A DNA stretch of 64,000 bases from Rhizoctonia solani (taxonomy: Eukaryota; Basidiomycota; Agaricomycetes; Cantharellales; Ceratobasidiaceae): positions 1,240,001-1,304,000 of the forward strand of contig NC_057380.1 in assembly GCF_016906535.1 (NCBI RefSeq), read 5' to 3'. The stretch's first letter is position 1; every line of letters starts with the position of its first letter. Under the pieces are notes generated by a model. The model was not told the DNA's origin. It saw only the letters and a list, made by a program, of their open reading frames with translations, and did not search any database. This document shows, in pieces, positions 5,317 to 51,924 of this stretch. The position numbers and the translations under genes are program-made.

Positions 5317-5425
5317 CAACCTACTCAACATTTGAATCTCTAAGTCAAACTTATCTTATGGAGGATGGGTTTTGTATAAATGCTCCCACTTAACTCTCAC
5401 TATTGCCATCCCACTCATACTGAAT

Positions 5426-15909: not shown

Positions 15910-16028
15910 CAGTGTTGGTAAATCCCAATGGGAACGTGGTTGGGCACTGGGATTACGTAAACGGGGCGTGGGATGGGATGGTTGGGAAGCAATGGGAATG
16001 TCACGTGATACATTTGCCAAACATAGTA

Positions 16029-17206
16029 CCGTGAGCGCCCGGGAAGTTGGACACATTTTGAAAGTTGCTGACGTCCAGGAGCAGCAACAGACTGGTAACT
16101 CATTCTAATAGCAAATTTATATACTTATGGGCACATTCTTCAACGTGCAAGTTGTTTTATTTAATTAGATTCAATATCAGCAGAATAATACCTAAATTAT
16201 GTTTAGCCCGGACAGAATGTCCGGATACGGGGAAGTTGGACACGTGACGGCCTTGATTCATCTGACTTGAGGCGTGAAAAAGTGAGTCTTACATACAGAT
16301 ATACCCCCCTTTGTGTTACAAATGAATGAAAAAAGCCAATTCGGAAAGATTGGGACACCTGAGTAGCAAGAAAACACCATAGATCTGGCAATTGAGGGTG
16401 AAAAAAGGGGGGCTTGGTCTCCAAGCAGCTGCTTCAAAATGCGGCACTCCTAAATTGGCACATAAAGACTAATTGAAGATTCAACAGGAACACCACATAA
16501 CACGTGAGCAGGAGCAAGCATTGAGTCTCCCAGAGGAAACAGAGGTGATTATGCTTTGTAACAAAATGGAGCGGCGTACCAACAATGATTGACAAGAAGT
16601 GGTTGAATGAACCTTTATATTCAACACTGAATCAAGTACGGAAGCGCTCAAAAAAGGCCTGTGAGATATAATTCTGATTTTCGAGGGAGCAGAACCTCAA
16701 ATAATCATACAACATGAAAAGGAGCAAAACAGAGAAGCAAACCCGGAAGCACGTGCTATGAACCTTGAAGGGGTTAATTTGGACGTGCGTGAGTGTATTT
16801 CCAAGCAGATATCGAAGAAATTTGTGAGAATTAACAAGCATATATACCCAGGTAGCATCAGCTCAAGGGAGAGGACACGGACAAGGTCATTGGGCCGGAA
16901 TTTCTGGAGGAAAAGGTTTGCTTGGTGAGCGTGGGTACTTTTCTATGGTTCAGCGCCTTACTTATCAAATTCTGACCAATGAATATTCTACTAGAGCCCT
17001 TGGAAGAGGGGGAGGAGGTCTGAGATGATAATTGCTACGTTTTCCTATTTTTATATTATTCAATTCACTTCAGAAACACATAGAAATGCCCTTAGTCTAT
17101 TTACTCAGGTGTATACATGCATTTGTAGCTCGAGTTTTTGTTGTTTGAGTCAAAAACGGCAAATGTCCGACTTCACGGGTGTGTCCGACTTCCCGGGCGC
17201 TTACGG
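16029..17206. mobile_element. Nested TA-flanked inverted-repeat element (in left hAT)
   Basis: The ends CCGTGAGCGCCCGGGAAGT and its near-complement (…CTTCCCGGGCGCTTACGG) form terminal inverted repeats of about 27 bp, flanked by TA at 16027-16028 and 17207-17208. The word GTCCGACTTC/GAAGTYGGAC recurs near both ends. No transposase is present, so it is a non-autonomous Tc1/mariner-type element that entered the hAT before the hAT was copied; the same insertion is at 30832-32010. Confidence 0.75.
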
Positions 17207-17251
17207 TATATACACATATTGGAATTAAATACAACAACGTAAAACGAACAA

Positions 17252-20008
17252 TTATGCGGCCGAATCGTCAATTTGTAGGGTTTGTTGCACGTCCCGAGTG
17301 ACCAGCCCGTAGAGCTCAAGCTCTGCTTTGAGATTGTCCAATCCGTTGGACTTGAAAACATCCAGTCCGTGCGCTTTGGACCCGGTACTACGGGAGTAAT
17401 CAAATAGATCACGTAGTGAGATGGGAGACTGAGTCCCAAAGAACAATCAAACCTTTTTCGGGAGCGTATTGGTGGGTGGTGTGGAGTTTGTTGTGCAAGA
17501 GTCTTTGAACTCATTGTCTAATGGGTCTTTGTCATTGAGTACATCTTGACGAAGTTGCATTGCAAGTGAGCGCACACTAGAGGTGGCTAAACCCTCCTCG
17601 GTTATATCGACGTCAGCAATTGACTCTGCAAGTTTGTCGGGCTGGTTATTGGCCCTTGAAATCACTGAGTCAAGGGCTGGAGAGCCAAATTGACGCTTCA
17701 GCCTTGAGCGCGTCTGTCCTTCATCTGCGTGCTTGCGTTTGAGGTCCATACGCACAACTGCAGTGTCAAATACCTTCTGGTATCCCAGTTGATTGCGCCG
17801 TTTTGTGTGGATGTGTCCCATCTCGCTGAATAGTTGCTTGCAGCCAGCCAAGTTAGCAACAATCAACAAAATGTGTATTGCTAAGTGAGCTAGCTGATGA
17901 CGTCCAGAATTTGGTGTTTCATAGGCAAGCAGGCCCAACCAGACATTGATCATGTTGAGGGGCTTACCCTAAGTACACGCAAGAACTTAGTAAGAAATTG
18001 TATGGGGCTCAATAATGATTATTATGTACTTACCGCTTGCTTGTGCATTGCCCGCTGCTCTTTGTAATCCCATCAATTGGGGTGAAACTCGCTTTGAGAG
18101 TCGTAATAGTCAAGAAACGCTTTGTATAATTCGAGGTCATTTTCCTTACGAAAGACTTGTTGGAACACGCGCTTGACAACGCCATAGAGCGCAGACCAAT
18201 TCAGTAAGGTGTTTTGTCAGCTAAATAGGCAAGCTCAAATGAAAGGGTTGAGGAAGACAGCCAGAATGAAGGGATCCTGGTCTGCCTTACCCCAGCGATG
18301 CTCTAAGCTCTCCAACACACACTCCCGAACCTTTGGATTGAACCCAAGGTGCGAAAATGTGTAATACAACCGCCCAAGTTCGACCAGAATATGATCCAGC
18401 CTAGTAGTCGCGGCCTGAGAGACATTTGCAGCGATTGCAAGTGGCTCTAGGTATAGCTTGAGCCTACAAGAAAAGGAGGTTAAGAATACATCTTAGCAGA
18501 TTCAATTAATTTATGTGCTTACTTGCCCAATCTATGCCAAAATTCAGGATCATCAATGTTCTTCAAGACAGTGTTGGCTTGCTCAATTGTCTCAGGGGAG
18601 CGTCCCGCACTTGCCCAAAACTCCTCAGGGTTACGTGCGGCAATGGCACAAAGTGATTGGGACTCAGACAGTAGGCTGCAGAACAAAAGGAAGTGAGAAG
18701 TCCATCAAGTGAGAACAGGGAGAGTGAGACTACAAGGCTTCCTGCCATCCCGCGCCTGCTCCTGACGGAAGAGTCCAAGTAAATAAGAGTGATTGAGCAT
18801 CCACTTAATGATATCAATTGCGGCATCTGCTGTATCAACAAGCCGTGAGGTTAGGCCCATGATATCGCCAACTATAAGGTTAATCTATTGCCAAGTTTAT
18901 CAGACCCCAACTGAATGCATACACAAGCCATATGTGCATACCTGGTGTGCCCAACAGTCAAAAACCAAAATATGAGGGCGTAAGCAATGGAGTCGGACTT
19001 GCATGGCTCGTGAGTTGCCTCCCGCATCAGACACCCAGGCAATGATACGGACATTGTGCTCCTTCTCAGCACTGTCTATATCATTGAGTACCAGCTTCAA
19101 GTGGTTGTTGGCTGTCTTGTGTTGCGCTGATAGATTGTGCACTTGAACAGTATAAGTCTAAAGTTTGTGTGTTAGTTGGTTGACAGTAGTGGCAGTTAGG
19201 CTAGCATACCTTGTAATCAACAGAGAGCATAGACGCAATTAATGCGTTCCGTTTAATGTTCTTCCATCCATCACTCATACCTGTAGCTAACCAACCCAAA
19301 TTGCCTCATGCATAGAGGAATTTGCAGCCTCAAGTTGAGTTTGAAGAATTGGCCCTGACAGCTTATGTCAATCGGGCAACATTGCATTTGGTAGCCACTT
19401 CTGAAAGAACTTATGGGTTTCCGGTGCATTGATAGCATGCCAGGCAAACCCATTTGCAACCCACAGTTTACAGAGATCGGAATTAAACTCTGTCTGTTGC
19501 TCCTTTGACAGCAAGTGGTAAATTTTGGGGAGGGCTGGGTACGGCAATGTCTTGCTATTGTTTCCGCGATCTGGGGTTGATCCTGTGGACCAAGGAATTA
19601 AGGCAGCTGAGGAGCAAGTACGCGCACGTTCTGAGGCCAGCCTATCCTTAGCCTCAGGGGATACAAGTTCACAGCTATGTATATGCGCTTCAAACGCTTC
19701 TCTACGACTGGGGATAGGGCAAACAAGTGAGATGGCTAGTAATCAACATGAGTATAACCAAAATATCCAAGTATCAAAAGAACTTACCCCAATGAAGGTG
19801 TTCAGTTTGTGGTCAAACTTTGGAGATGATACCATGCTCCAGTGCCTGTTGATCTTCCTGTTCCATAGTGCTGGTACATAATGCAATACATCCACAACAC
19901 CAAGCGTTCAAGTAGCTACCACCATTGTAGTTGTCCTTGTTGCCAGCCAATTTGAGGTCATGTGGTTGGGTTTGGAAGTACTGCCAGTGCCAGAGTGGTG
20001 CCGGCATT
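17252..20008 (-). pseudogene. hAT transposase, left copy
   Basis: This mirrors the right copy described at 28030-30786. Blocks include the C-terminal dimerisation region (17953-17447, GCKQLFSEMGHIHTKRRNQLGY) and the catalytic-core block (19142-18900, WVSDAGGNSRAMQVRL ... HILVFDCWAHQ). The in-frame TGA codons checked in the right copy are also here (for example the complement of CCGATTGACATAAG near 19369), so both copies descend from an already broken source. Confidence 0.85.
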
Positions 20009-20340
20009 GTTGTAGGAGGTAAAAGGTGAATGGGAGTTATCTTGGAACTTGGATCCTGACAATACTTATGTATGCGCGCTGATGCGCCTTGGTTGTTCAA
20101 GAATCGCGTAGAAACTAACATATATGGTAATTCTCTGACTAAAGCGATACTTGGAGCAGTGGGATTGACTTGGGTTTTGTTTGGCTGATGCGGACTCGGG
20201 CTTTGTCAGCTTTCGGCAAAAGTTCGCCGAGCGCTCAGAGATCGGCTCCCATATGGTCCCGAACACTTAATCCCTATCCCTCCCAGCACTTTCCAATACT
20301 GTTTGCCATGGGAATGGGATTTACCAACACTGCTCGGGAT

Positions 20341-20657
20341 TGTCGGTCATGGTGGTTGTCGTTGTCACGTGCTCCTTACATTTGCCTGCAGAAGACACGC
20401 GGCTTGTGCTTGTTTAGCATGGCCACGGTCCCCATCCTTAGGGCTGGTCCCAAACCTGCCTTGTGATTGCCTTGAGGTCGCCTTGAGGTAGGTACGAGCC
20501 TCTGCGTTACAGGGATTTATATCCCTGCCCTCTCGAGTCTTCGTTCTTTGTTCTATCACTCGCTAGTGAGTCGATAGCTCCCCATAACTAACACCTGCGC
20601 AGATCGCGGTTGAGGTCTTCAAGAAATATCATAAAACTCATACATAAGAAATTAGAA
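20341..20657 (+). promoter_or_regulatory. Probable promoter and 5' leader of the single-codon-exon gene
   Basis: This lies between the hAT right end and the first ATG of the gene. TTTATATCC at 20515-20523 is TATA-like, followed by a pyrimidine-rich stretch (20535-20560). A possible short leader intron (GTGAGT at 20565, CTAAC, CAG at 20600-20602) precedes the exon that ends in ATG 20658-20660. In that frame TAA at 20589 excludes an upstream unspliced start. All of this is inferred. Confidence 0.35.
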
Positions 20658-23600
20658 ATGGTACGCTGTCTCAAGGATCTGCTTCATACTCACTGAGAAA
20701 CGCTGATAACCATATACAATGATACTATTATCGCATTGCTTTGGCTGTGTCTGACATATGCAGGAATCAAAGGCAAAGGTATGACTCATATAAGGGTCTC
20801 AGCCACTTCGATCTGTTGAGCCTGATTGTAATCCTCGCACACTTTGAAGGATGTAAGACCGAGTTCGATGCAAGAGGCTGTGGTTCTGATAAAATAATAA
20901 AATGATACGCCTATATAGGAAGTGAGTAGGACATCAGCATAGAGATCCGGATTTACAGTTCGATTGACGAATCGATAAACCCACCCAGCAAGTGCGTACC
21001 AAACTCTCATGCTGTTCATGTTAGGAGTAAAGTAAGCTAAAATGTGGATAGGCGGTTCGTGTGCAACTTGCCAAATAGGATGTTGGTGCTGATGATGGTT
21101 GCCGCGAACGCTTCAACAGAGGGTGAGTGGGGTATTGTACCTGGATACAAAAGAGGCTAAGCCCTGTTTGGAAACAGGATGTGAGTACATGTTAACTGAC
21201 GTATCTAAGCGCGGTATGATAAAGCTCGAGTAGTGGGTATGTACAGATAAAACGGCATTGGAAGTTATGACCTTAGGCCGGGACCGCATATCAATATATA
21301 TATTGTGCGTTCAGGTGCGCGACTGTAGTGTTGTTACTAACCCAAGTCTCAAACTCAACAGAAGGTCAGTAGTCTCCTGGGTCCATATGAGTGTGACATC
21401 ATTTCCCACATCGTTTACAGATGGTAAACGTGTAAGAGCCCAGATGAGGCAAAGGACTAATATACGAACTATTATAGAAGGTATATATCGCGTCTACTAG
21501 CACCTTATTCGTACCTCTATTGACGTATAAGCCGCAACGACAAATATGGTAGTTGGTAGGTCTACCATACCCAAGGCTGACGACACGACATATTTGACAG
21601 CACTTATGGCCCGTTTGTTAGGCTGTACGTTCACCGAATTCTGACCAGAGAGAAACAGGATGATCTGTGAGTGTGCTGTGCGCCTCGCTAAACGCAGGTC
21701 GGCTAATGTGAATGGGCTGCATGTTATGCTAGCGTTAGTAATTTGCTCAGCTCATCTGAACACAATAGGCTCATGGGTATGGATAGTGTGCAGGAAGTAA
21801 GTACTTGAAGCCCAACGTGGTGGTATCCGCTTTGGGGCTGCCTGTATGTGTGAGCACGAAATTGTCTCGTAACCAAATCTGTATGGCTTACTTGTGCGAC
21901 AGAAACGAGGCGGGTGCCACCAGAGCTAAACGCATGCCATGTCAATAGGAGGTAAGTGACCTTTTTTCGAAGAAAGCGGGGTCTTATGTAGTGCATCAAT
22001 GGGCAGAGAGTGAGCAAATTAAGATCACTTCTAGAGTAAGTATGAGTGCCATGTACAATGACTTGAGAATTGGCTAATGGTCACACGTAGGATCGATGTT
22101 ATACTCATCAACGGAACAGGCAGTACGTATCCAAGTGTGAATTTGAACAACTTGAGTGAGAGCTGATGAGGTTCGGGTTACTGTATATGAGTAGTTGGTG
22201 CGTGAATTCATGGTTTGGTTACTGAGTGAAGGGTGAAAGAAGGGGACGCTAACTGTTGAAACCAAGGAGGTACGTACGCCATGGCCCTGAATCGCTTGGA
22301 TGATATGGAAAACCAATCGGAGCCTCGGGTCTAGACAGTGAGTGAAGGATGTTTCTAGGGAGAAAGCATGCTGAGATAATCTTTGTACACCTATGTCCCA
22401 TTTCAGAAGGTTAGGGCAGACTATCTGCTCGGTAGAGGTGCTCGCTAACGATGTCACGATTGATACCTGGTGAAACCAAGCCTGTGCGTACCGGAAAAAT
22501 AGGGATAGGCTACGAGGGCTGACAAGAAACTGGGTGCCAATTGGTATCTTAGCCGGTGAGTATGATGCTGATGTCGAAAACGGATGTATATTGAGGGTGG
22601 ACTACGTGACGTGCGGTATCTTAGAAGGTACGTATGGGGCTAATGTCGAGAATGAGATTTTACTAATGATGAACTGCGCGCTGTTCGGTTTATTAGCTGG
22701 TGCGTATGGGGCTGGTGTTGAGGATAAATATGCACTGACCACACACTGCGTGCTCTTCGGTATGTTAGCGGGTGCGTATGGGCTGGTGTCGAGGATGAAT
22801 GTGGACTGACCACACACTGCCTGCTGTTCGGTATATTAGCCGGTGCGTATGGGGCTGGTGTCGATGATGGATGTGCACTGACCACATACTGCCTACTGTT
22901 CGGTATATTAGCCAGTGCGTATGGGTCTGGTGTCGATGATGGATATGCACTGACAACACACCGCGTGCTGTTGGGTTTATTAGCTGGTGCGTATGGGGCT
23001 GGTGTCGAGGATAGATATGCACTGACCACACACTGCGTGCTGTTCGGTATATTAGAATGTGCGTACGGGGCTGGTGTCGAGGATGAATGTGCACTGACCA
23101 CACACTGCGTGCTATCCGGTATATTAGTGGGTGCGTATGGAGCTGGTGTCGAGGATGGATGTGCACTGACCATACACTGCGTGCTGTTCGGTATGTCAGG
23201 ATGTGCGTATGGGGCTGGTGTCGAGGATGGATATGCACTGACCGCACACTGCTGTTCGGTATATCAGGCGGTACGTATGGGGCTGGTGTGGAAAATGGAT
23301 ATACACTGACCACACACTACGTGCTGTTCGGTATATTAGCCGGTGCGTATGGGGCTGGTGTCGAGGATAGATATGCACTGACCACACACTGCGTGCTGTT
23401 CGGTATATCAGGATGTGCGTATGGGGCTGGTGTCGAGGATAGATATGCACTGATCACATACTGCATGCTCTTCGGTATGTTAGCGGGTGCGTGTGGGGCT
23501 GGTGTCGAGGATGGATATGCACTAACCACACACTGCCTGCTGTTTGGTATGTTAGCTGGTGCGTATGGGGCTGGTGTCGGGGATAGATATGCACTGACCA

Positions 23601-26600
23601 CACACTGCCTGCTGTTTGGTATGTTAGCTGGTGCGTATGGGGCTGGTGTCGAGGATGGATATACGCTGACCACACATTGCGCACTGTTCGGTATGTCAGC
23701 GGGTGCGTATGGGGCTAGTGTCGAGGATGGATATGCACTGACCACACACTGCGTGCTGTTTGGTATATCAGGATGTGCGTATGGAGCTAGTGTCGAGAAT
23801 GAGATTTTACTAATGATGAACTGCGCGCTGTTTGGTATATCAGTCAGTGCGTATGGAGCTGGTGTTGAGGATGGATGTGCACTGACCACACACTGCGTAC
23901 TCTTTGGTATATCAGTGGGTGCGTATGGGGCTAGAGTTGAGGATGGATATGCACTGACCACACACTGCCTGCTGTTCGGTTTATTAGCCGGTGTGTATGG
24001 GGCTAGTGTCGAGGATGAGATCTTACTAATGAAGAACTGCGCGCTGTTTGGTATATCAGTCGGTGGGTATGGGGCTTGTGTCGAGGATAGATATGCACTG
24101 ACCACACACTGCATGCTCTTCGGTATATTAGCGGGTGCGTACGGGGCTGGTGTCGAGGATGGATGTGCACTGACCACACACTGCGTACTCTTTGGTATAC
24201 CAGTGGGTGCGTATGGGGCTAGAGTTGAGGATGGATATGCACTGACCACACACTGCCTGCTGTTTGGTGTGTCAGGATGTGCGTATGGGTCTGGTGTCGA
24301 GGATAGATATGCACTGACTACACACTGCGTGCTCTTCGGTATATCAGTGGGTGTGTATGGGGCTGGTGTCGAGAAAGGATATGCACTGACCACACACTGC
24401 CTGCTGTTCGTTATGTTAGCGGGTGCGTATGGGGCTGGTGTTGAGGATGGATATACATTGACCAGATACCGCGTGCTCTTTGGTATGTCAGGATGTGCGT
24501 ATGGGGCTGGTGTCAAGGATAGATATGCACTGATCACATACTGCGTGCTCTTCGGTATGTTAGCGGGTGCGTGTGGGGCTGGTGTCAAGGATGGATATAC
24601 ACTGACTATACACTGCGTGCTGTTCGGTATATCAGTGGGTGCGTATGGGGCTGGTGTCGAGGATAGATATGCACTGACCACACACTGCGTGCTGTTCGGT
24701 ATGTCAGCGGGTGCGTATGGGGCTGGTGTCAAGGATGGATATGCACTGACTACACACTGCCTGCTGTTTGGTATATCAGTATGTGCGTATGGGGCTGGTG
24801 TCGAGGATGGATATGCACTGACCACACACTGCGTGCTGTTTGGCATATCAGGATGTGCGTATGGGTCCGGTGTCGAGGATAGATATGCACTGACTACACA
24901 CTGCATGCTCTTTGGTATGTTAGCGGGTGCGTATGGGGCTGGTGTCGAGGATAGATATGCACTGACCACACACTGCTTGCTGTTCGGTATATCAGTTGGT
25001 GCGTATGGGGCTGGTGTCGAGGATGGATATGCACTGACCACACACTGCGTGCTCTTTGGTATATCAGGGTGTGCGTATGGGGCTAGTGTCAAGGATAGAT
25101 ATGCACTGACCACACACTGCGTGCTGTTCGGTATATCAGTATGTGCGTATGGGGCTGGTGTCGAGGTTGGATATGCACTGACCACCCACTGCCTGCTGTT
25201 CGATATATCAGGATGTGCGTATGGGGCTGGTTTCGAGGATGGATATGCACTGACCACATACTGCGTGCTCTTCGGTATGCTAGCCGGTGCGTAAGGAGCT
25301 GGTGTCGAGGATGGATGTGCACTGACCGCACACTGCGTGCTGTTTGGTATATCAGGCGGTGCGTATGGGGCTGGTGTCGAGGATGGATATGCACTGACCA
25401 CACACTGCGTGTTGTTCGGTATGTTAGCGGGTGCGTATGGGGTTCGTGTCGATGATGGATATGCACTGACCACACACTGCCTTCTGTTTGGTATGTTAGT
25501 TTGTGCGTATGGGGCTGGTTTCCAGCATGGATGTGGACTGACCACACACTGCCTGCTGTTCGGTATATTAGACGGTGCGTATGGAGCTGATGTGGAGGAT
25601 GAATATGCATTGACCACAAACTGGGTGCTGTTTGGTATGTTAGCGGGTGCGTACGGGGTTGGTGTCGAGGAAGGATATACACTGACCACACACTGCTGCT
25701 TCGGTATGTTAGGAAGTGAGTATGGGGCTGGTGTCGACGATGGATGTTCACTGATCACACACTACATGCTCTTCGGTATATTAGCGGGTGAGTATGGGGC
25801 TGGTGTCGAGGATAGATATACACCAACCACACACTGGGTACTTTTCGGTATATCAGGGTGTGCGTATGGGGCTAGTGTCAAGGATAGATATGCACTGACC
25901 ACACACTGCGTGCTGTTCGGTATATTAGTATGTGCGTATGAGGCTGGTGTCGAGGATGAGTATGCACTGACTACACGCTGTATCGTTCCATACCTCAGTG
26001 GGTATGTGCACAATGTCCATCCATTCTACAAACTTACGGCTTTATATCTGCCATATAAGATAGTCAGTCTTTTCTTCTTTCTTACTTGCACTCTGGTCAT
26101 CAGTATGAGTTTACGCAGCGAGTGCGTATATATCTCATTGGGGGTACGAGTACTTACTAATTTTTTGACATCCTTTTTGCTTATAGAGTGTACGTTGTAC
26201 ATTCACTTTCGAGTGGCAACGTGTACTTACTTCCGCGGCTTGGTGTCTTTAATTAATGTTAGCCAGTGAGTTCATCACAGTTATCAATCTCTCATGAGAA
26301 CTTATTGCTACTGCTTTGGTCTGCCTTCTCTTCTAGTGGGTATGTTTGTATTTACCATTCACAATAGCTACAGAGGACACCCGTTGATCGGTCGGAATAT
26401 TCTCGTTCAATGTTTCAGTATGTGCGTACACGACATTAGTTTTAGTCAAGTGACTCGTGCTGACTGAACCTTGTATCTCATCCCCCAGAAGGTACAAATC
26501 CGGCAGCAATCTGGTAGAATAGGTGTTAACAAACTTGATCGATACCCAAATGTGCACTTTCAGGCGGTACGGACTTATTTCCTCTTGACAGCAAATTTGT

Positions 26601-27021
26601 GCTCACAAATTGAGGATTGGGCATATCTATTATAGAAGGTTCGTATACCCTGCATTCCTCGTTGGAGTACGTTGATGGATCGAGGACCTGCATTCATTAT
26701 GTTAGGCTGTGTGTATATTACCTTGACTACGTCGAGATAGCATTTGACTAACATACGTCTTGCCCTCCTAGCGGGTGAGTACATAGAGCCATTTGCTCAA
26801 GCATGCGCTCCAGTCTTGATTGTTGTTGATGTATTCTACAGCTGGTGCGTACATCGTCAGCAGAGCGGCGTTCTGTTTTGTGCTATTCAAACACTTATCG
26901 ACATACGCCATTTCAGGATGCAACTCTGAGAAGGCATGCCCGTCAACGGGTCGGGTCTCATGCCTCGGAATTACACCACGGTAAAAGTTATGTTGATCTC
27001 CGAACCGGTCATGGGTACTGA
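20658..27021 (+). CDS. Gene made of 82 single-codon (3-nt) exons
   Basis: From ATG 20658-20660 (last codon of its exon, donor GTACGC) the plus strand is a chain of intron-like segments. Each starts GTNNGT or a close variant, usually holds a CTNAC-like branch site, and ends AG. After a 15-nt exon (20764-20778, ESKAK), successive acceptors and donors are exactly 3 nt apart 82 times; one 8-nt plus 1-nt pair (21659-21666 and 21733) also sums to whole codons. The last exon begins at 26917 and ends at TGA 27019-27021. None of the 82 triplets is a stop. The predicted product is 125 residues: a charged start (DEQARDWKMKLADDLEE), a Trp/Arg/Asp/Pro-rich middle, and a basic end. Introns are mostly 53-79 nt. 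No homologue is recognised. The splice pattern is seen directly; expression is not. Confidence 0.72.
20764..22555 (+). other. 5' block of micro-exons with non-repetitive introns
   Basis: Exon starts and codons: 20764 (15 nt), 20850 GAT, 20919 GAA, 20989 CAA, 21052 GCG, 21120 AGG, 21178 GAT, 21234 TGG, 21362 AAG, 21421 ATG, 21478 AAG, 21553 TTG, 21622 GCT, 21659 (8 nt), 21733 (1 nt), 21794 GAA, 21949 GAG, 22007 AGA, 22120 GCA, 22195 TTG, 22267 GAG, 22335 ACA, 22407 AAG, 22481 CCT, 22553 CCG. The introns between them are not tandem copies. Good branch-like words include GTTACTAACCC (21335) and CGCTAACTG (22248). Three acceptors end AAG rather than TAG/CAG (20849, 22266, 22480). The 8+1 pair is the least certain part because the intron before it would be only 34 nt. 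Introns of 103, 125, 152 and 110 nt could hide further exons. Confidence 0.65.
22556..25998 (+). repeat. 72-bp tandem array: one intron plus one codon per unit
   Basis: About 48 units, nearly all 72 bp (rarely 68-71), run GTGCGTATGGGGCTGGTGTC ... GCACTGACCACACACTGC ... TTCGGTATATCAG followed by three variable bases. A subtype with TTTTACTAATGATG occurs at 22628, 23775 and 23991. Codon starts: 22625 AAG, 22697 CTG, 22769 CGG, 22840 CCG, 22912 CCA, 22984 CTG, 23056 AAT, 23128 TGG, 23200 GAT, 23268 GCG, 23340 CCG, 23412 GAT, 23484 CGG, 23556 CTG, 23628 CTG, 23700 CGG, 23772 GAT, 23844 TCA, 23916 TGG, 23988 CCG, 24060 TCG, 24132 CGG, 24204 TGG, 24276 GAT, 24348 TGG, 24420 CGG, 24492 GAT, 24564 CGG, 24636 TGG, 24708 CGG, 24780 TAT, 24852 GAT, 24924 CGG, 24996 TTG, 25068 GGT, 25140 TAT, 25212 GAT, 25284 CCG, 25356 GCG, 25428 CGG, 25500 TTT, 25572 ACG, 25644 CGG, 25713 GAA, 25785 CGG, 25857 GGT, 25929 TAT. 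Confidence 0.93.
25999..27021 (+). other. 3' block of micro-exons and terminal exon
   Basis: Codon starts: 25999 TGG, 26060 ATA, 26119 CGA, 26187 AGT, 26263 CCA, 26337 TGG, 26419 TAT, 26489 AAG, 26564 GCG, 26636 AAG, 26706 GCT, 26772 CGG, 26842 CTG, then the last exon from 26917. These introns (56-79 nt) have left the 72-bp repeat and share no obvious sequence, yet the AG-NNN-GT spacing is unchanged. Branch-like words include TTACTAATT (26154), GCTGACTGAAC (26459), GTTAAC (26525) and TGACTAACAT (26745). The final exon reads DATLRRHARQRVG and on to TGA 27019-27021; an alternative final intron (GTAAAA 26981 to CAG 27051) would change only the tail. Confidence 0.68.
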
Positions 27022-27691
27022 CCACTTCTGTGCTCGCATTCGACATCCCAGATCAAGCACAATCAGGATCTCAGGGGTCATGTCAAAACTAGCAAATCCG
27101 GGGCCGATGTTTTGGATGGTATGTAACAAGTAGCTACAAGGCAGACCGAGGAACTGATGGCTTACAAAGGGTACTGCGATTTGTGTGCGGGCATGTGTTA
27201 TGACTGCTAGGAAGTCAAGTGTGGTTGGAATGGAATACATGGATTTCATGAGAGCATAAAAGTGGTACTCGAGCTTCAGTGCTCCGGTTGTCGCGAGACC
27301 CATCAATAGAGGCAGTCGTCCGGCTCTAGATACGGGCGCTGGGAGATTGGACGCGCAACTGGGCGGCACCGGATGATTTGGGGCATTAAGACTCGAACAG
27401 AACTAGCAGGTCGAGTGGGCCATGCCTGACGGATAGTAGTGATGTGTGAAGGAACGGGGAAGATAAGCCACTGATGTCTGTCGAAGATCACTGGATTGAG
27501 TAGCATGAACGTCAGAAGCACAAAAAATCTGATCTTTCGGCTCGATATCCACGAACTCGGTAATGAGGGTTGCGCGTAAACATGAGTACCTGGGCCATAT
27601 ACCTTCTATAGAAATGTCATGTACTTACTAGTGAATTCTAGGATATTTTATTTGCTATAATCGAGTTGGTAAGTTGTAAGAGACCCAGTCG
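27022..27691. other. No supported gene between micro-exon gene and right hAT
   Basis: A minus-strand open frame (27369-26971, 132 codons) overlaps the gene's last exon antisense and resembles nothing I know. No splice chain continues on the plus strand. The stretch ends at the right hAT inverted repeat; the 8 bases before it (CCCAGTCG) are not repeated on the other side of that element. Confidence 0.4.
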
Positions 27692-28029
27692 CAGTGTTGG
27701 TAAATCCCATTCCCATGGCAAACAGTATTGGAAAGTGCTGGGAGGGAATAGGGATTACATAAGTGTTCACCATGGGATACCATATGGGAGCCAATCTCTG
27801 AGCGCTCGGCGAACTTTTGCCGAAAGCTGACAAAGCCCGAGTCCGCATCAGCCAAACAAAACCCAAGTCAATCCCACTGCTCCAAGTATCGCTTTAGTCA
27901 GAGAATTACCATATATGTTAGTTTCTACGCGATTCTTGAACAACCAAGGCGCATCAGCGCGCATACATAAGTAATTGTCAGGATCCAAGTTCCAAGATAA
28001 CTCCCATTCACCTTTTACCTCCTACAACA

Positions 28030-30786
28030 ATGCCGGCACCACTCTGGCACTGGCAGTACTTCCAAACCCAACCACATGACCTCAAATTGGCTGGCAACAA
28101 GGACAACTACAATGGTGGTAGCTACTTGAACGCTTGGTGTTGTGGATGTATTGCATTATGTACCAGCACTATGGAACAGGAAGATCAACAGGCACTGGAG
28201 CATGGTATCATCTCCAAAGTTTGACCACAAACTGAACACCTTCATTGGGGTAAGTTCTTTTGATACTTGGATATTTTGGTTATACTCATGTTGATTACTA
28301 GCCATCTCACTTGTTTGCCCTATCCCCAGTTGTAGAGAAGCGTTTGAAGCGCATATACATAGCTGTGAACTTGTATCCCCTGAGGCTAAGGATAGGCTGG
28401 CCTCAGAACGTGCGCGTACTTGCTCCTCAGCTGCCTTAATTCCTTGGTCCACAGGATCAACCCCAGATCGCGGAAACAATAGCAAGACATTGCCGTACCC
28501 AGCCCTCCCCACAATTTACCACTTGCTGTCAAAGGAGCAACAGACAGAGTTTAATTCCGATCTCTGTAAACTGTGGGTTGCAAATGGGTTTGCCTGGCAT
28601 GCTATCAATGCACCGGAAACCCATAAGTTCTTTCAGAAGTGGCTACCAAATGCAATGTTGCCCGATTGACATAAGCTGTCAGGGCCAATTCTTCAAACTC
28701 AACTTGAGGCTGCAAATTCCTCTATGCATGAGGCAATTTTGGGTTGGTTAGCTACAGGTATGAGTGATGGATGGAAGAACATTAAACGGAACGCATTAAT
28801 TGCGTCTATGCTCTCTGTTGATTACAAGGTATGCTAGCCTAACTGCCACTACTGTCAACCAACTAACACACAAACTTTAGACTTATACTGTTCAAGTGCA
28901 CAATCTATCAGCGCAACACAAGACAGCCAACAACCACTTGAAGCTGGTACTCAATGATATAGACAGTGCTGAGAAGGAGCACAATGTCCGTATCATTGCC
29001 TGGGTGTCTGATGCGGGAGGCAACTCACGAGCCATGCAAGTCCGACTCCATTGCTTACGCCCTCATATTTTGGTTTTTGACTGTTGGGCACACCAGGTAT
29101 GCACATATGGCTTGTGTATGCATTCAGTTGGGGTCTGATAAACTTGGCAATAGATTAACCTTATAGTTGGCGATATCATGGGCCTAACCTCACGGCTTGT
29201 TGATACAGCAGATGCCGCAATTGATATCATTAAGTGGATGCTCAATCACTCTTATTTACTTGGACTCTTCCATCAGGAGCAGGCGCGGGATGGCAGGAAG
29301 CCTTGTAGTCTCACTCTCCCTGTTCTCACTCAATGGACTTCTCACTTCCTTTTGTTCCGCAGCCTACTGTCTGAGTCCCAATCACTTTGTGCCATTGCCG
29401 CACGTAACCCTGAGGAGTTTTGGGCAAGTGCGGGACGCTCCCCTGAGACAATTGAGCAAGCCAACACTGTCTTGAAGAACATTGATGATCCTGAATTTTG
29501 GCATAGATTGGGCAAGTAAGCACATAAATTAATTGAATCTGCTAAGATGTATTCTTAACCTCCTTTTCTTGTAGGCTCAAGCTATACCTAGAGCCACTTG
29601 CAATCGCTGCAAATGTCTCTCAGGCCGCAACTACTAGGCTGGATCATATTCTGGTCGAACTTGGGCGGTTGTATTACACATTTTTGCACCTTGGGTTCAA
29701 TCCAAAGGTTCGGGAGTGTGTGTTGGAGAGCTTAGAGCATCGCTGGGGTAAGGCAGACCAGGATCCCTTCATTCTGGCTGTCTTCCTCAACCCTTTCATT
29801 TGAGCTTGCCTATTTAGCTGACAAAACACCTTACTGAATTGGTCTGCGCTCTATGGCGTTGTCAAGCGCGTGTTCCAACGAGTCTTTCGTAAGGAAAATG
29901 ACCTCGAATTATACAAAGCGTTTCTTGACTATTACGACTCTCAAAGCGAGTTTCACCCCAATTGATGGGATTACAAAGAGCAGCGGGCAATGCACAAGCA
30001 AGCGGTAAGTACATAATAATCATTATTGAGCCCCATACAATTTCTTACTAAGTTCTTGCGTGTACTTAGGGTAAGCCCCTCAACATGATCAATGTCTGGT
30101 TGGGCCTGCTTGCCTATGAAACACCAAATTCTGGACGTCATCAGCTAGCTCACTTAGCAATACACATTTTGTTGATTGTTGCTAACTTGGCTGGCTGCAA
30201 GCAACTATTCAGCAAGATGGGACACATCCACACAAAACGGCGCAATCAACTGGGATACCAGAAGGTATTTGACACTGCAGTTGTGCGTATGGACCTCAAA
30301 CGCAAGCACGCAGATGAAGGACAGACGCGCTCAAGGCTGAAGCGTCAATTTGGCTCTCCAGCCCTTGACTCAGTGATTTCAAGGGCCAATAACCAGCCCG
30401 ACAAACTTGCAGAGTCAATTGCTGACGTCGATATAACCGAGGAGGGTTTAGCCACCTCTAGTGTGCGCTCACTTGCAATGCAACTTCGTCAAGATGTACT
30501 CAATGACAAAGACCCATTAGACAATGAGTTCAAAGACTCTTGCACAACAAACTCCACACCACCCACCAATACGCTCCCGAAAAAGGTTTGATTGTTCTTT
30601 GGGACTCAGTCTCCCATCTCACTACGTGATCTATTTGATTACTCCCGTAGTACCGGGTCCAAAGCGCACGGACTGGATGTTTTCAAGTCCAACGGATTGG
30701 ACAATCTCAAAGCAGAGCTTGAGCTCTACGGGCTGGTCACTCGGGACGTGCAACAAACCCTACAAATTGACGATTCGGCCGCATAA
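28030..30786 (+). pseudogene. hAT transposase, right copy
   Basis: A transposase of the hAT superfamily can be followed through introns at about 28249-28300, 28828-28880, 29098-29151 (joining CWAHQ to INLIVGD), 29517-29574 and 30004-30070. It has a BED-like Cys/His start near 28330, the core WVSDAGGNSRAMQVRL ... CWAHQ (28896-29097), and the C-terminal dimerisation block at 30085-30260. In-frame TGA codons lie at 28667, 29801, 29819, 29963 and 30589, with no TAA or TAG in the frame I followed. A one-base shift is also likely near 28215. It cannot encode an intact enzyme. Confidence 0.85.
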
Positions 30787-30831
30787 TTGTTCGTTTTACA
30801 TTGTTGTATTTAATTCCAATATGTGTATATA

Positions 30832-32010
30832 CCGTAAGCGCCCGGGAAGTCGGACACACCCGTGAAGTCGGACATTTGCCGTTTTTGACTCAAACAACAA
30901 AAACTCGAGCTACAAATGCATGTATACACCTGAGTAAATAGACTAAGGGCATTTCTATGTGTTTCTGAAGTGAATTGAATAATATAAAAATAGGAAAACG
31001 TAGCAATTATCATCTCAGACCTCCTCCCCCTCTTCCAAGGGCTCTAGTAGAATATTCATTGGTCAGAATTTGATAAGTAAGGCGCTGAACCATAGAAAAG
31101 TACCCACGCTCACCAAGCAAACCTTTTCCTCCAGAAATTCCGGCCCAATGACCTTGTCCGTGTCCTCTCCCTTGAGCTGATGCTACCTGGGTATATATGC
31201 TTGTTAATTCTCACAAATTTCTTCGATATCTGCTTGGAAATACACTCACGCACGTCCAAATTAACCCCTTCAAGGTTCATAGCACGTGCTTCCGGGTTTG
31301 CTTCTCTGTTTTGCTCCTTTTCATGTTGTATGATTATTTGAGGTTCTGCTCCCTCGAAAATCAGAATTATATCTCACAGGCCTTTTTTGAGCGCTTCCGT
31401 ACTTGATTCAGTGTTGAATATAAAGGTTCATTCAACCACTTCTTGTCAATCATTGTTGGTACGCCGCTCCATTTTGTTACAAAGCATAATCACCTCTGTT
31501 TCCTCTGGGAGACTCAATGCTTGCTCCTGCTCACGTGTTATGTGGTGTTCCTGTTGAATCTTCAATTAGTCTTTATGTGCCAATTTAGGAGTGCCGCATT
31601 TTGAAGCAGCTGCTTGGAGACCAAGCCCCCCTTTTTTCACCCTCAATTGCCAGATCTATGGTGTTTTCTTGCTACTCAGGTGTCCCAATCTTTCCGAATT
31701 GGCTTTTTTCATTCATTTGTAACACAAAGGGGGGTATATCTGTATGTAAGACTCACTTTTTCACGCCTCAAGTCAGATGAATCGAGGCCGGTCACGTGTC
31801 CAACTTCCCCGTATCCGGACATTCTGTCCGGGCTAAACATAATTTAGGTATTATTCTGCTGATATTGAATCTAATTAAATAAAACAACTTGCACGTTGAA
31901 GAATGTGCCCATAAGTATATAAATTTGCTATTAGAATGAGTTACCAGTCTGTTGCTGCTCCTGGACGTCAGCAACTTTCAAAATGTGTCCAACTTCCCGG
32001 GCGCTCACGG
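30832..32010. mobile_element. Nested TA-flanked inverted-repeat element (in right hAT)
   Basis: This is the mirror copy of the element at 16029-17206. It begins CCGTAAGCGCCCGGGAAGT after TA 30830-30831 and ends …CCCGGGCGCTCACGG before TA 32011-32012. It lies at the same place in the hAT, so it was inserted before the hAT was copied. Confidence 0.75.
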
Positions 32011-32129
32011 TACTATGTTTGGCAAATGTATCACGTGACATTCCCATTGCTTCCCAACCATCCCATCCCATGCCCCGTTTACGTAATCCCAGTGCCCAAC
32101 CACGTTCCCATTGGGATTTACCAACACTG

Positions 32130-39089: not shown

Positions 39090-39584
39090 TTGTAGGCTTG
39101 ATTCAACAAGGAGAAGGCTCCCTGTACTAGCACAAGGGAAACACACATGATTGGGGCCACTTTGGGGACAGAATAATCCACAGTCCACCACCCCCATGTA
39201 GTACCAAATTGCTACAAGGCAGACAAGTCCTGATCCCCTGCATACCACAAGTTTTGCTGGAACTCAGCAGATAGCAATCCCAGACAGCTGAACCACCCAC
39301 TTGCTAATAACCTGCTCATATCACAATTGACCAGATCTGCTGATTTGTTGTAGGGGTAGTCCAATGCTAGGTGTACAATGCAGGGACTTAGCGTACACAC
39401 TCTGCAGAAAAACTGCTCATAAGTCCTGTCACAGGCACACTTCCCCCATGCCATCTCCAATATTCCCTCCACACACTCTGGTGTCCCTCACCCCTACTCA
39501 CATCCCTCAAGCCACTCCTCCTATTGCTCAGTTCCAACCCATTCCCAACCACCCTCTTGCAGTGCATCTCCCTCTCCATGAGAC

Positions 39585-41336
39585 TTGCCCAGAATGGAAC
39601 CAGAGCCAACACCTGTTGCTCTCCTCAAGGCTATCCAAGCCTTATCCACCCAAGTTGGGGCCCTGCAGGACCAAGTCAAGTCCCAGGGCAAAGTCATCAC
39701 CCAGCTCATTGCCCTATGCAGGGAGACCAACAACTTTGTCTTGGATAAGGATCAAGGAAAGCCTAGCACAACAGCTGGGCCTTCAACCCCCCCCAGGACA
39801 GCAAGGAGGTCAAACCAAAACTCCAGGAATGGTTAGGCCTGGGCACAAAGCCCCTTTCAAACCCCTCAGAAGACCAGGGTTTGTCTACAACTCCAAGGAA
39901 GAGGAACCCTGGCCAGAAGAACCCTGCAGGCAAATCAAAAAAGAGCCTTGCAGCATGCCTAGGGATTTGAGGGCCCTTACCCCCTTTGACTCAAGCTCCA
40001 ATACAAAACATCCCAAAATGGAGCTACCTGACCCCTTTAAGGGCAACACCAGGGCGCATAAGGCTGTTCAATGGCTTGATTGTATGTTGCTATGGGGGGC
40101 CTTACACTGCAACTAGTTTGACAAGGATGAGCAGATGGTTGTATGGATCCTCTATCACATGGAGGACAAGGCAGCTGATTGGGCTCTCCCGCTCATAGGC
40201 AACATTATCAAGGGAGAAGGGAATGCCCCTACCACTATTCCAGGGCTGACAGTCCACTTCAAGGAGGCATTTGCCAATCCCAATGCCAAACAAGCTGCAG
40301 CATGCAAAATAGCTGCCCTCACCCAGACTGCCTCAATGGCGGAGTATGTCACCAAATTCTGCAACCTAATTGCAGAACTAGATTGGAATGAGGAGGCATA
40401 CATAGCCCAGTTCACACGCAGCCTCCACTGGAAGGTGAAGGAGCTTCTGTCCACAAAGGACAACATCCCAGACAACCTTGAAGCTGTCATGCCCTAGAGG
40501 TGTGACCACCTTAGAATCCACTAAGTCAAAGGAATAGTGAATATATGCGCTATTTTCATGAAGATTTATGGATATATGCATCTTTATGCTATTTAGGTGC
40601 TGAGCACTTATTATGTAATCTAATCACATGACTAAAGGTCATGTGATCACGTCTTTCTTATCTCTGGTCATGTGACCTTATCTTTGTTGTTATGTTTGTA
40701 CATGTAATTACTCTTCCCCTTCTCTGTTGAATATATAAGGAGGGTTCTGAGAGCCTTAAGCCTCAGAACTCAACCTCTTATCCCCTTCCTACATCTACCT
40801 ACCCTAAGACATACACTTTAGAGTATTGCCTGAGAGCATGCCAGTCCCTGTCAAAGGTTCTTAGCCCTGCTGTCTTTACAGCATAGTGCACTTTACTATA
40901 TCAGGTCTTGTCCTACCCCTTTCCTGGCATTGCCCCCAAGCATTGTTAGGCCCTACTAGCTGATAAGTCCTATATTAGGCAATAGCTTGTTAGGATTACC
41001 CTTTGGTAGTTGTTGGCTCTGACAGAAGCCATTTTTGCGGCTTCCATTAAAATTGACAACACCCACTGCAAAAACAAGGAAAATTGTCCCAAAAAGCAGC
41101 CTGCTAAGTCCCCAGCCACCATGGCCACCTCCACTTCCACCACCACTAGCAGGGTTTGCCTATCCAAGGACCCAAATTACATCACCCTGGAGGAACAAGA
41201 CCATTGCTGTGCTGCTGGCCTCTGCATCAAATGCAGTCAGAAGGGGCATGGCATCAAACAATGCCCTAATGGATGGAAGGCTACAATCAAGGAGACAGCC
41301 AAGGTGGCCAAGGATGCTGAGTCAGGAAAAGATTGA
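39585..41336 (+). pseudogene. gag of element 2, split by solo LTR4
   Basis: The gag begins about 39585-39597 (MEPEPTPVALLKAIQALSTQ), shifts frame near 39800, has a TAG at 40114-40116 where a sister copy has CAA (HCHQFDKEEQ near 59010), and runs to 40484. There a 540-bp solo LTR4 interrupts it; it resumes at 41030 and ends with a zinc knuckle, CIKCSQKGHGIKQC, near 41225-41270. The gag stop TGA is at 41334-41336, two codons after GGAAAA. Confidence 0.85.
40485..41024 (+). repeat. Solo LTR4, copy 2, inside gag of element 2
   Basis: Begins TGTCATGCCCTAGAGG, ends GTTGGCTCTGACA, and is flanked by GAAGC on both sides (40480-40484 and 41025-41029). TATATAAGGAGGG near 40730 is a promoter-like box. 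The insertion is younger than element 2. Confidence 0.93.
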
Positions 41337-43812
41337 AGTCAAGGACTGCTGCCAAGCCCCTGACTCAAAAAATGGACAATTTAGATAGTATTGAATTTGT
41401 ATCTCTTGCCTTAGACTTGAATAAAAAACTGTTACTCTTTATCAATCTTTATGTCCAGAATTTCCTGGCAGAACCCTTGAAAACCCTCATAGATTCAGGG
41501 GCCACTTTGAATTTCATCTCTCCATCAATTGTAGAAAAATACAAAATCCCAAAAACCCAACTTGAAAATCCACAAGTTGTGAGAATGCTAGATGGTACTA
41601 TATCCCAGACTGGTTGCATTTGGCATCAGGTTCAACTTGCAGTCTCAGCCAATGGCCATTCACACTCTATCCCCTTTCTAGTTTGTCCTATTGGCAACAC
41701 ACTGGCAATCCTAGGCATGACTTGGCTCACAGCAGAAGCTCCCCTCATTGACTAGCAACAGGGATTAGTCACATTCCCTGAACAAGTTCAGATTGCCTCT
41801 GAGGAAGAAGCAGACTTGGACCCACTGGCTGACCTACCTGCTCAGTACCACAAATTTGCCAAGGTCTTTGGTGAAGAGGAATTTAAGGTCCTCCCCCCAC
41901 ATAGGGAGTACAACATTGCAATTGACCTTATTCCCAACACCAAACTCTCACCTGGACCTATCTATGGCATGACTGATGCAGAATCTAAGGCACTCAAGCA
42001 ACACATTGATGAGGAACTAGCCATGGGCAAAATCCGCCCCAGTACCTCATCTGCAGGCACTCCTGTGATGTTTGTCAAGAAAGCTGATGGATCCCTTAGG
42101 TTGGTTGTTGATTACCAGAAATTGAATGACATCACACACAAAAGCATTTACCCCTTGCCACAACAAGATGACCTCATGGCTAAACTATGTCATGCCAAGA
42201 TGTTTACCAAATTAGACCTAAGGTGGGGATACAACAATGTGCGCATCAAGGAAGGTGATGAGAAGACTGCCTTCAGAACCAAATATGGGCTCTTTGAGTA
42301 CTTGGTAATGCCCTTTGGTCTGACTAATGCACCTGCAGCCTTTCAACATTGTATGAACAATCTGTTCCAGGACCTAATTGACGTGATGGTGGTAATCTAC
42401 TTGGACAACATCTTGATTTTTTTGGAGAAACCAGAGGAGCACCCTACCCACATAAGGGAAGTCCTTTCCAGGCTAATGAAGAATCAGCTATTTTGCAAAC
42501 TCTCCAAGTGCCATTTCCATGTTACAATGGTTGACTACCTTGGTATTGTCATCTCCCCAGCCAGCTTCTCCATGGATCAAAAGAAGATCAAAGCAGTTAC
42601 ATCAAGGCCACAGCTGAAGACAGTCAAACAGGTCCAGGCTTTCCTAGGATTTGTGAATTACCTCTGCCAGTTCATTCCTAATTTCAGTTCAGTGGCTCAA
42701 CCCTTGCATAACCTCACCAAAAAGGATTCCCCTTGGTTATAGGGACCTAAAGAGGAGGAAGCATTCCAAAGTCCCTTGTCACAAGATCACCAGTCTTGAT
42801 CCACTCAAACCTGGAACTACCTTACTACCTAGAAACAGACGTGTCAGGAGTAGCCATGGGAACAATCCTTAGTCAACAAGGGGAGGATAACTGTCTGCAC
42901 CCAATTGCGTACATATCCAAGTTGTTTTCAGGAGCTGAGGCAAGTTACAATACCTACAACAAGGAGTTGCTGGCCATCATCAAAGCCCTGGAGGAATGGC
43001 ACATCTTCTTGGAAGCCATGCATAAGCCAATTCAAGTTTTCACCAACCACAGGAATTTGGAATACTGGATGCAGGCACAGACATTTAATTGGAGGCATGC
43101 CTGTTGGCGCGTATTCTTGAGTGATTTCAATTTTGAAATACACTACTGCCCAGGGAAACAGTTGGGAAAATCAGATGCCCTGTCCAGAAGGTCAGATTAC
43201 ACAGACACACCCCAGGAACCAGAAATCATGCTCCCCTCAGAAGTATTTGCCAACATGTTGGAAGAAGAGCTTGAAATCGTCACAGAAATTTGCTCCAAAT
43301 TAAGGGAGGACCCTTCCCTCAATGCCATCATCAGTTTCCTAACAGAAGATGCAGACAATGCCCCTCCCTCAATTTGGAAAGCTCACAGGAATTACAATTG
43401 GGAGGAAGACCTTCTATGGTACCGTGGAAAATTGGTAGTCCCTGACTCAGAACCCCTCAAAGAACAACTACTGAAGGAATTCCACAACTCACCTCTGGTG
43501 GGACATCCAGGTCAACAGAGAACCCTCAAACTCCTGAGCTGGAATTACTGGTGGCCAGGAATGAAGTCCTCAGCCAAAGAAGTTGGTGTTGCCCCACCTG
43601 CCAGGCCAATCAATGTGCTCATGCTCCCACCATTGCTTTGAAACCCCTGGAAGTTCCCCTGTTCCCCTTCCATACCATCTCATACAACTTCATCACTGGT
43701 TTCCCTAAGTCACAAGGGTACAACGCCGTACTGGTGGTTATAGATTTGTTCTCTAAGCTTGGGCATTTTATCCCAACAACTAAGAAGGTATCTGCAAAAG
43801 GGCTAGCAGAAC
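41330..43812 (+). pseudogene. pol of element 2 (protease, RT, RNase H, partial integrase), truncated
   Basis: The pol lies in the -1 frame from the end of gag. The protease has IDSGATLNFI (about 41490). The reverse transcriptase (41816-42742) has TKLDLRWGYN, FGLTNAPAAFQ and the active site YLDN at 42398-42409. RNase H (from about 42796) has YYLETDVSG but TNHRNLEYW where TDH is usual. The integrase zinc region is broken by a frameshift near 43585 (CPTCQANQ is in the next frame). TAG stops at 41753 and 42739 replace Trp codons. The gene is cut at 43812, just after the first integrase Asp region, by LTR3 of element 3. Confidence 0.9.
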
Positions 43813-44257
43813 TGTCATGAGCCTCACCTGACATAATTATGTGCTGTCACCTCCCTCCCCCCAGGGTATTCATCTGGGGGACTCATCTGTATCCATCTCA
43901 TCTGTTTGCATAGTTCCTATCTTCCCTGTTTATGTTCTTCCCTCTTCCTTGTTCCCTTCTTGCACTTAGCCTGGACTTACTCCGCTCTAAGTGCTTCTAT
44001 CTTGCTTATCTTGCTGCACACCGGCCCGGTTCAATGTGTAGAGCTTCTGAGCCATATGCTCCATCATGCTTCCAAGTTGTGCGGCCCAGACACTGTCCCT
44101 CCTCCTTGTATTTACCCCCTTTCACTTTTGTTATAAAAGAAGACTGTGAATTGGCTTGGAAACCCCAAGAACAATTCACCTTGTCAATTTCCCACTCCCT
44201 CATCTGTGTGAATTGTCCCAATATCTCATAGCAGTCATTCCACTCTTGGTTGTGACA
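43813..44257 (+). repeat. 5' LTR3 of element 3
   Basis: Starts TGTCATGAGCCTCACC, ends CTCTTGGTTGTGACA. TATAAAAG at 44132-44139 is followed 35 nt later by AAGAACAATTCAC (44167-44179), the likely transcript 5' end and self-primer. It differs from the 3' LTR (50966-51420) by several indels. Confidence 0.9.
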
Positions 44258-44259
44258 TT

Positions 44260-44272
44260 GTGAATTGTTCTT
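44260..44272 (+). promoter_or_regulatory. Self-primer binding site of element 3
   Basis: GTGAATTGTTCTT, two bases after the LTR, is the exact reverse complement of AAGAACAATTCAC at 44167-44179 inside the LTR. The same site sits next to the reversed LTR3 of element 4 (53743-53755). Confidence 0.75.
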
Positions 44273-44478
44273 TCCTGGCTGTAGCCAATTTATCAACCTG
44301 GACATCACTCAGGTCCTCATCCCCACCTTTACTTCTTACAGTTCTCTTTTCCCTTGCCATGGGGCGCACTGGGTTATTGCACACCACCAACTAGGCTATC
44401 CTCACATTGATTCAGAAAGACCTGAACTCTTTTACCTCAATACATCCCTCAGATTGCATGTAGTTTGCATCAGACGCT

Positions 44479-50083: not shown

Positions 50084-50192
50084 ATGGTCAAACAACTCAG
50101 CAAGTCAAAAACTGCCCGCTTTGTCACTTTACAAGCTCTCACTGCCAAAACTCGCCCTGCTAAGCTCTTCTTGCGCTCCCCACTATCCCAGC

Positions 50193-50896: not shown

Positions 50897-50949
50897 CTAT
50901 TGATTGTTCTGAATGGATATAAGCAGCCCTTTGTCACTGCCTAAGGGCT

Positions 50950-51920: not shown

Positions 51921-51924
51921 TTCC

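Follow-up and report, generated by a model that had tools for sequence, protein, structure and literature searches.

How finely can a coding sequence be cut and still specify a protein? A locus of the basidiomycete Rhizoctonia solani raises this question. It lies in a window of 64,000 nucleotides (C11:1240001-1304000 of the 40.7-Mb, 16-contig genome); all coordinates given here are window positions, and the gene is on the plus strand. A sequence-only reading of the window had claimed a chain of consecutive single-codon exons with introns of mostly 53-79 nt, which was borne out, the count being refined from 82 to 83. Comparison with further copies in the genome makes it probable that the locus belongs to a protein-coding family whose codons nearly all form separate exons. 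This architecture is real and, within the literature searched, undescribed.

The chain of splice-like sites spaced by 3 nt is confirmed by several counts. In the left non-tandem flank (20850-22552), 14/19 GTRNGT donors have an AG exactly 3 nt upstream, and in the right one (26000-26920) 8/12; other AG-to-donor spacings from 0 to 30 occur 0-5 times (left) and 0-1 times (right), and dinucleotide shuffles of the same flanks (1000 each) gave means of 0.56 and 0.13 with maxima of 4 and 3. This comparison of AG-NNN-GT with other spacings in the flanks had been set beforehand as a check on the claim; the spacing proved far commoner, and the claim was not refuted. With exon length left free, a chain finder made 70/83 internal exons of the window copy 3 nt long; the corresponding counts elsewhere are 70/83 (C13), 56/69 (C12a), 53/68 (C9), 50/59 (C12b), 31/48 (C12c) and 30/45 (C16). 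Two control stretches of the window yielded 1/13 and 0/7 exons of 3 nt. On the reverse complement none of 56 exons had this length and 24 'exons' of six nt were found, with a score of 254 vs 442, a value that is still fairly high because any tandem array repeats some spacing. In the window copy, up to 71 AG-NNN-GTNNG sites follow one another without a break (gaps 45-175 nt); on the 16 strands of 8 window segments of 6.5 kb each that served as controls, the longest runs reach 1-3 (gaps 45-110 nt). Shuffles and control segments rule out chance spacing. Inheritance of the spacing from a satellite is also ruled out, because the flanks are non-tandem yet carry it, also in other copies, as the sequence-only reading had argued from the window.

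The other copies came from similarity searches, which found six, on C13, C12 (three: C12a, C12b and C12c), C9 and C16, at 100-67% identity. The family thus totals seven copies on five contigs, which is a lower bound, as always with similarity searches. The C13 copy is part of a duplication of a whole 16-kb palindrome that encloses the gene, and it differs from the window copy at five positions within the gene, none of them in codons. A relic on C3 (C3:61736-61933 and downstream; L044, ~4737-5330) retains three array units with a longest chain of 3. Further downstream on C3, a piece resembles the right flank by eye. With tandem DNA at the centre of a palindrome, one copy truncated or without a detectable right flank and another reduced to a relic, one might take the locus for a decaying non-coding satellite with chance splice-like motifs, or for an assembly artefact. 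Such an origin is extremely improbable in view of seven copies on five contigs, two R. solani protein records, the conservation of sites and codons described below, and control segments without such a chain.

From ATG to stop the gene model of the window copy measures 6,435 bp (20658-27092) and comprises 87 exons and 86 introns, with 372 coding nt for 123 residues. Single-codon exons of the form AG-NNN-GT number 83 (22 left, 48 in the array, 13 right; array exons were set to 3 nt), and the remaining exons include one of 15 nt and two ordinary 3' exons. The introns range from 53 to 169 nt, mostly 53-79 nt, and 48/86 are 69 nt long. The parts of the locus, all on the plus strand, are as follows.

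20381-20600, plus strand: upstream region common to the copies, likely promoter and 5' untranslated region; 75-91% identity in the five copies without palindrome arms
20658-20660, plus strand: coding part of exon 1, ATG followed immediately by donor GTACGC; AATGGTACG identical in 7/7 copies
20764-20778, plus strand: exon 2, 15 nt (ESKAK); 9 nt in three other copies, with the frame preserved
20850-22483, plus strand: left chain of 22 single-codon exons (DEQARDWIKMKLAEERALETKP) with non-tandem introns between them; AG-NNN-GT at 22/22 in C13, C12a, C9, C12b and C16
21302-21304, plus strand: left-chain exon ATT; ATA or ATC in other copies, always Ile; acceptor not AG in the window
21625-21793, plus strand: 169-nt left-flank stretch in which splice-like signals are conserved; it may be a single long intron or contain additional exons of 8 and 5 nt
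21797-21948, plus strand: 152-nt left-flank stretch, perhaps a single intron after exon loss
22010-22119, plus strand: 110-nt left-flank stretch that includes a conserved intron-like segment
22553-25931, plus strand: tandem array of 48 single-codon exons and similar introns of mostly 69 nt (unit 72 nt), predicted to encode the hypervariable middle of the protein
25999-26844, plus strand: right chain of 13 single-codon exons (WIRSPWYKAKARL) with non-tandem introns between them; AG-NNN-GT at 13/13 in all six right-flank copies
26917-26980, plus strand: penultimate exon, 64 nt; its downstream junction matches R. solani model AG1IA_08049
26981-27051, plus strand: phase-1 intron; donor, CTGAC-like site and AG common to the aligned copies, with a one-base indel between copies inside
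27052-27092, plus strand: last exon, ending with TAG 27090-27092; as read manually in the alignment, this stop is in frame in each of the five further copies that have a 3' end

The frame proposed at first, from ATG 20658 to TGA 27019 with 125 residues, keeps its start; the TGA falls inside the conserved phase-1 intron, and the stop is TAG; the present model has 123 residues. Similarly, an uninterrupted series of 3-nt gaps (82/82) had been read, which does not apply to the second exon, to the three long left-flank stretches or to the non-AG acceptor at 21302, the rest being retained. That acceptor is AG in all six other copies and deviates only in the window copy. The three stretches exceed the intron length typical of this gene and may contain hidden exons. 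Conserved exon-like segments of 8 nt (21659-21666) and 5 nt (21733-21737) occur there, out of frame.

Comparison of the non-tandem flanks, aligned for seven copies on the left and six on the right (no right flank was found for C12c), supports a coding function. AG and GT are present at 35/35 single-codon exons outside the array in C13, C12a, C9, C12b and C16; 34 of these exons were scored together, and the 35th (at 21302), which was mis-registered by one base, was taken from the alignment. Splice-site loss in the left chain amounts to 3/22 in C12c and 1/22 in the window copy. Identity of intron bodies to the window falls from 91% in C12a to 77% in C9, 76% in C12b and 60% in C16, while the codon columns of these four copies show 77-97% identity and no gaps. 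The flank exons, C12c excepted, would encode the peptides DE[QR]ARDWIKMKLAE[EQ]RA[LM]ETK[PS] and [WR][IMR][RQEH][SGN]PW[YFL][KE]A[KM][AS][RQ]L. Among distinct codon changes 15/33 are synonymous, against 6.2 expected under uniform change (P 0.0001), and among single-base changes 14/27, against 6.9 expected with the alignments' own substitution spectrum (P 0.002); both tests omit C13 and C12c and take the distinct codons of an exon as independent. The maintenance of reading frame, codon length and splice dinucleotides while intron bodies diverge supports the protein-coding chain first read in the window, beyond what the window alone could show.

These codon data also bear on a different view of the spliced locus, in which the 3-nt steps are relay points for the removal of one long intron, or a spliceosome sponge, and the triplets are irrelevant as codons. 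AG/GU relay points are known from recursive splicing (PMC13149111). At the present locus, however, three bases are retained between AG and GT, and they are conserved as codons, with synonymous changes, and include no stops. The C-terminal exons are of ordinary size and share the same frame and stop. Moreover, the locus measures only 6.4 kb, as opposed to the introns of tens to hundreds of kilobases in which recursive splicing is described in that source (PMC13149111). We therefore regard relay points as a very unlikely explanation.

The sequence-only reading took the array to be tandem and overlooked its most striking feature, the hypervariable triplets between near-identical introns. When units were located from the interior of the intron and splice sites were ignored, both AG and GT were present in 47/48 units of the window, 33/33 of C12a, 33/33 of C9, 24/24 of C12b and 12/12 of C16. 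The sole exception among the 48 window units is a one-base register shift, and the degenerate C12c has 20/24. Best conserved among 69 columns are G3, A41 (the branch A), T4, T39 (the branch-site T) and A70, followed by G71 and G7 (the +5 G), level with A24 and A27, columns without a recognized role; least conserved are the first two triplet bases. Donor GT, branch-site A and acceptor AG, the hallmarks of spliceosomal GT-AG introns, stand out above the intron body here (columns 3, 4, 39, 41, 70, 71) and in the flanks. The triplet, by contrast, is the most variable 3-column window of the 72-nt unit in 6/6 copies tested (C13 was omitted as a near-duplicate). Unit pairs with identical 69-nt introns carry different triplets in 118/161 cases (70/83 in C12a, 40/61 in C9, 8/14 in C12b, 0/3 in C16); window and C12c contain no pair with identical introns. 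As had been claimed for the window, stop triplets are absent: none occurs among 204 array triplets (0/158 without C13), against ~9.6 expected from within-copy shuffling of the three columns, a count that we take as support and not as a formal test since array units are non-independent. The third triplet base is G in 101, T in 51 and A in 6 of 158 cases and never C. Each copy uses 5-17 codon types in short repeated orders (orders judged by eye).

Since the unit of 72 nt equals 24 codons, the array might instead be translated unspliced as a 24-residue repeat protein with two adjacent hypervariable residues, in the manner of TALE or PRDM9, the splice-like motifs being incidental. One plus-strand frame of the array indeed holds 0-1 stops in 4/6 copies (C12a 1, C9 1, C12b 0, C16 0), the window holds an open stretch of 735 aa, and an R. 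solani read-through protein exists in the database. However, other frames are open too (in C9, 4/6 have <=2 stops), as expected for a period divisible by 3, and no plus-strand frame of the window copy has fewer than 16 stops. In the open frame the ratio of nonsynonymous to synonymous differences (pN/pS) is 0.93 (18 codons; array consensus sequences from five copies, compared in 10 non-independent pairs), so that no constraint is seen; the two other plus-strand frames give 3.88 and 0.71. The most conserved columns include GT, AG and the branch A, with T4 and A70 at third positions of the open frame, and the non-tandem flanks retain AG-NNN-GT at 35/35 exons. In the right flank, every plus-strand frame of all six copies contains several stops. 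Tested by frame stops and pN/pS, an unspliced repeat protein is thus disfavoured, and we grant it only a slim chance.

Taking into account these comparisons, we propose that ordinary intron definition governs splicing of the transcript, with GTRNGT as donor, a CTNAC-like branch site and AG as acceptor. Introns would be removed sequentially, with one codon joined per step, because two spliceosomes cannot occupy introns 3 nt apart simultaneously. Each array unit would then consist of one codon and a 69-nt intron, and the similar introns would supply long homology for recombination. Unequal exchange or conversion inside introns could add, remove, swap and re-order single amino acids, with all products in frame. 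Turnover would homogenize the introns, and selection on the protein would keep the codons different. Such diversity is perhaps needed for recognition of a partner, rival or host. The coding chain, its conservation and the hypervariability are seen in the comparison of copies; splicing, translation, recombination as the driving force and the need for diversity are inferred. We consider this recombination-plus-selection engine moderately likely.

Linkage between codons and neighbouring intron bases is informative about this engine. The strongest links to the preceding intron are at columns 67 and 69 in C12a (z 8.0, 7.8) and at column 69 in C9 (z 8.4) and in the window (z 5.4), and the following intron is linked at column 6 in C12a (z 6.1). 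Links with z >=6 thus involve bases 3-5 nt upstream of the codon (C12a, C9) and, in C12a, the base 4 nt downstream of its end. The codon seems to have been separated from the intron interior by exchange within introns, at least partly. The same gene could also be driven by another engine, either targeted mutation at the exon or rewriting of the introns alone from excised intron RNA, with copying that ends at the splice sites. This alternative includes the coding chain, and its likelihood overlaps with that of the explanation proposed above. It would account for the extreme contrast of the 118 identical-intron pairs with differing triplets among 161 in four copies, and for GAT, TGG and similar codons being common to copies whose array introns have diverged. 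On the other hand, columns 67 and 69 are variable and linked to the codon, and therefore the boundary does not coincide exactly with the splice site; the limited set of codon types per copy and the re-use of short orders are as expected from shuffling. We consider another engine unlikely on balance.

It is tempting to go one step further and view the array as a library of single-amino-acid cassettes, in which introns are the homology arms and one codon is the cargo. Recombination or copy-back of intron RNA would rewrite the protein residue by residue with the frame unbroken, and exon skips would each drop one residue, so that one transcript could give a population of peptides. This extended model is possible, and we put it forward tentatively.

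A number of observations weigh against a coding chain diversified by local exchange, in addition to the open array frame already mentioned. The synonymous tests carry no correction for phylogeny. Linkage is only partly local, with column 52 of the preceding intron in C12a (z 5.5) and weaker distant links, and C12b and C16 have no codon link above z 3.2. The gene model does not account for the 169-, 152- and 110-nt stretches of the left flank, which contain extra splice-like signals common to copies, whose use would break the frame. Some copies decay: sites have been lost in C12c, for which no right flank was detected, C3 holds a relic, and the window copy lacks one acceptor. Finally, the protein database yielded no spliced homologue among the candidates scored across searches (3596, the best 8000 of more, and 1).

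The matches that were obtained are from R. solani. The last 34 residues of AG-1 IA protein AG1IA_08049 are the same as in copy C12b across the predicted phase-1 junction, so that this protein holds the last two exons joined as predicted. A second record (P0002, unnamed protein product, partial) is a read-through of a related array; a count by eye, in the protein only, finds one extra residue in 4/7 of its units, precisely where the exon would lie, which suggests two-codon exons in another isolate. Both matches read through introns where the single-codon exons start. A profile of five predicted proteins and a 300-residue piece of array read-through retrieved one R. solani fragment each, and a 75-residue join of the conserved ends retrieved none. 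With respect to homology to micro-exon or bicycle genes, the only match at E <= 0.1 was from R. solani, in a word-based search that would miss very diverged relatives. Iso-Seq data have been reported for R. solani AG8 (PMC12774589).

Across the family the predicted products are small and hydrophilic (85-123 aa). Their N- and C-terminal segments are conserved, with RDWIKMKLAEERALETKP and NPWYKAKARLDATL as predicted ends, and the 12-48 residues between these segments are hypervariable, with many Trp, Arg, Asp, Pro and Tyr. This arrangement suggests a possible role in recognition or binding. A Pfam scan of the predicted protein gave no match, nor did Rfam and tRNA scans of the window.

A precedent for very small exons exists in the same genome. 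In the actin gene (L045, ~1165-1330), introns of 60 and 59 nt flank a 6-nt exon, TTGCTG, deduced from the conserved protein; joining restores KAGFAGDDAPRAVF, as known for actin. This organism can therefore accommodate tiny exons flanked by short introns, and a long series of 3-nt exons is an extrapolation beyond this case.

Two features flank the gene.

15910-20333, no strand assigned: left arm of the palindrome, 99.3% inverted match to 27691-32129
27691-32129, no strand assigned: right arm of the palindrome, partner of the left arm

The 16-kb palindrome (15910-32129) formed by these 4.4-kb arms is the one duplicated as a whole on C13. Its arms carry an open reading frame weakly like the hAT dimerization region (E 0.11 and 0.053, below cut-off). 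Diverged relatives of the arms on C4, C3 and C9 are, by coordinates, away from gene copies, and five further copies of the gene align to the query at its promoter-side end alone. That the gene is cargo of the palindrome was rejected from the positions of the arm relatives and from the five copies without arms; the palindrome looks secondary. Elsewhere in the window, 39331-54215 contains several reading frames of retroelements, which by eye look gag-, protease- and polymerase-like; within this region, 43813-46603 and 51421-54215 form an inverted copy of 93% identity. Near the C16 copy, a plus-strand open reading frame (L013 303-782) is like the C-terminal part of a UPF1-type helicase, as recognized by eye.

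How does this family compare with known systems? Schistosome micro-exon genes have many small exons and fast-evolving products, and both they and the aphid bicycle genes resemble the present family in these respects, although their exons, as far as the available accounts go, are several codons long and here one codon. To our knowledge, the introns of those genes are not a homogenized minisatellite. The aphid 'megacycle' gene is described with >100 microexons for ~2000 aa (PMC9168663). The present array has homogenized units with variability concentrated in few codons, as in PRDM9; the repeat unit itself does not appear to be coding (pN/pS as given above, from a small sample). In PRDM9 the repeated part is coding, with a unit of 28 residues, whereas here it is intron and one codon per unit is coding. 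The tandem coding units of that zinc-finger minisatellite combine fast turnover with reported positive selection at DNA-recognition positions (PMC3890296). HYP effectors of potato cyst nematodes likewise have conserved ends and a hypervariable domain of shuffled units, but one exon made up of multi-residue motifs is described for this domain, with no single-codon exons (PMC11228951). With regard to introner-like dispersal, our similarity searches with two copies matched only this family and one relic, as a lower bound. Introners are spread over many genes, whereas the similar introns here are in tandem within one gene at one-codon spacing. Introner-like elements of fungi are multiplied, near-identical introns in one genome (PMC4457414). 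Microexons, including those of 1 nt (plant APC11 and VPS55) and of 3-15 nt, also have ordinary spliceosomal introns around exons far under normal size and are easily missed in annotation (PMC8831610, PMC13149111), and two 3-nt exons are mentioned in one fungal gene (PMC5639578). In the accounts cited, microexon genes have one or few such exons among longer ones; here there are 83 in one gene, each exactly one codon. Among the matches listed for open-licence PMC literature (titles and abstract starts), no description of a gene of consecutive single-codon exons was found. We know of no other system in which a recombining intron unit carries one codon.

If spliced as predicted, the gene would represent an extreme of intron definition, with 83 exons too short for both splice sites to be bound together. 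The spliceosome could then assemble a protein codon by codon, and the order and fidelity of splicing could be tested in a natural setting. Diversity of the protein would arise in the array from a recombining repeat that is intron and information that is one codon; with one codon per intron unit, all rearrangements would therefore be in frame. Gene finders miss such genes, as both database models read through the introns, so related families may be overlooked elsewhere.

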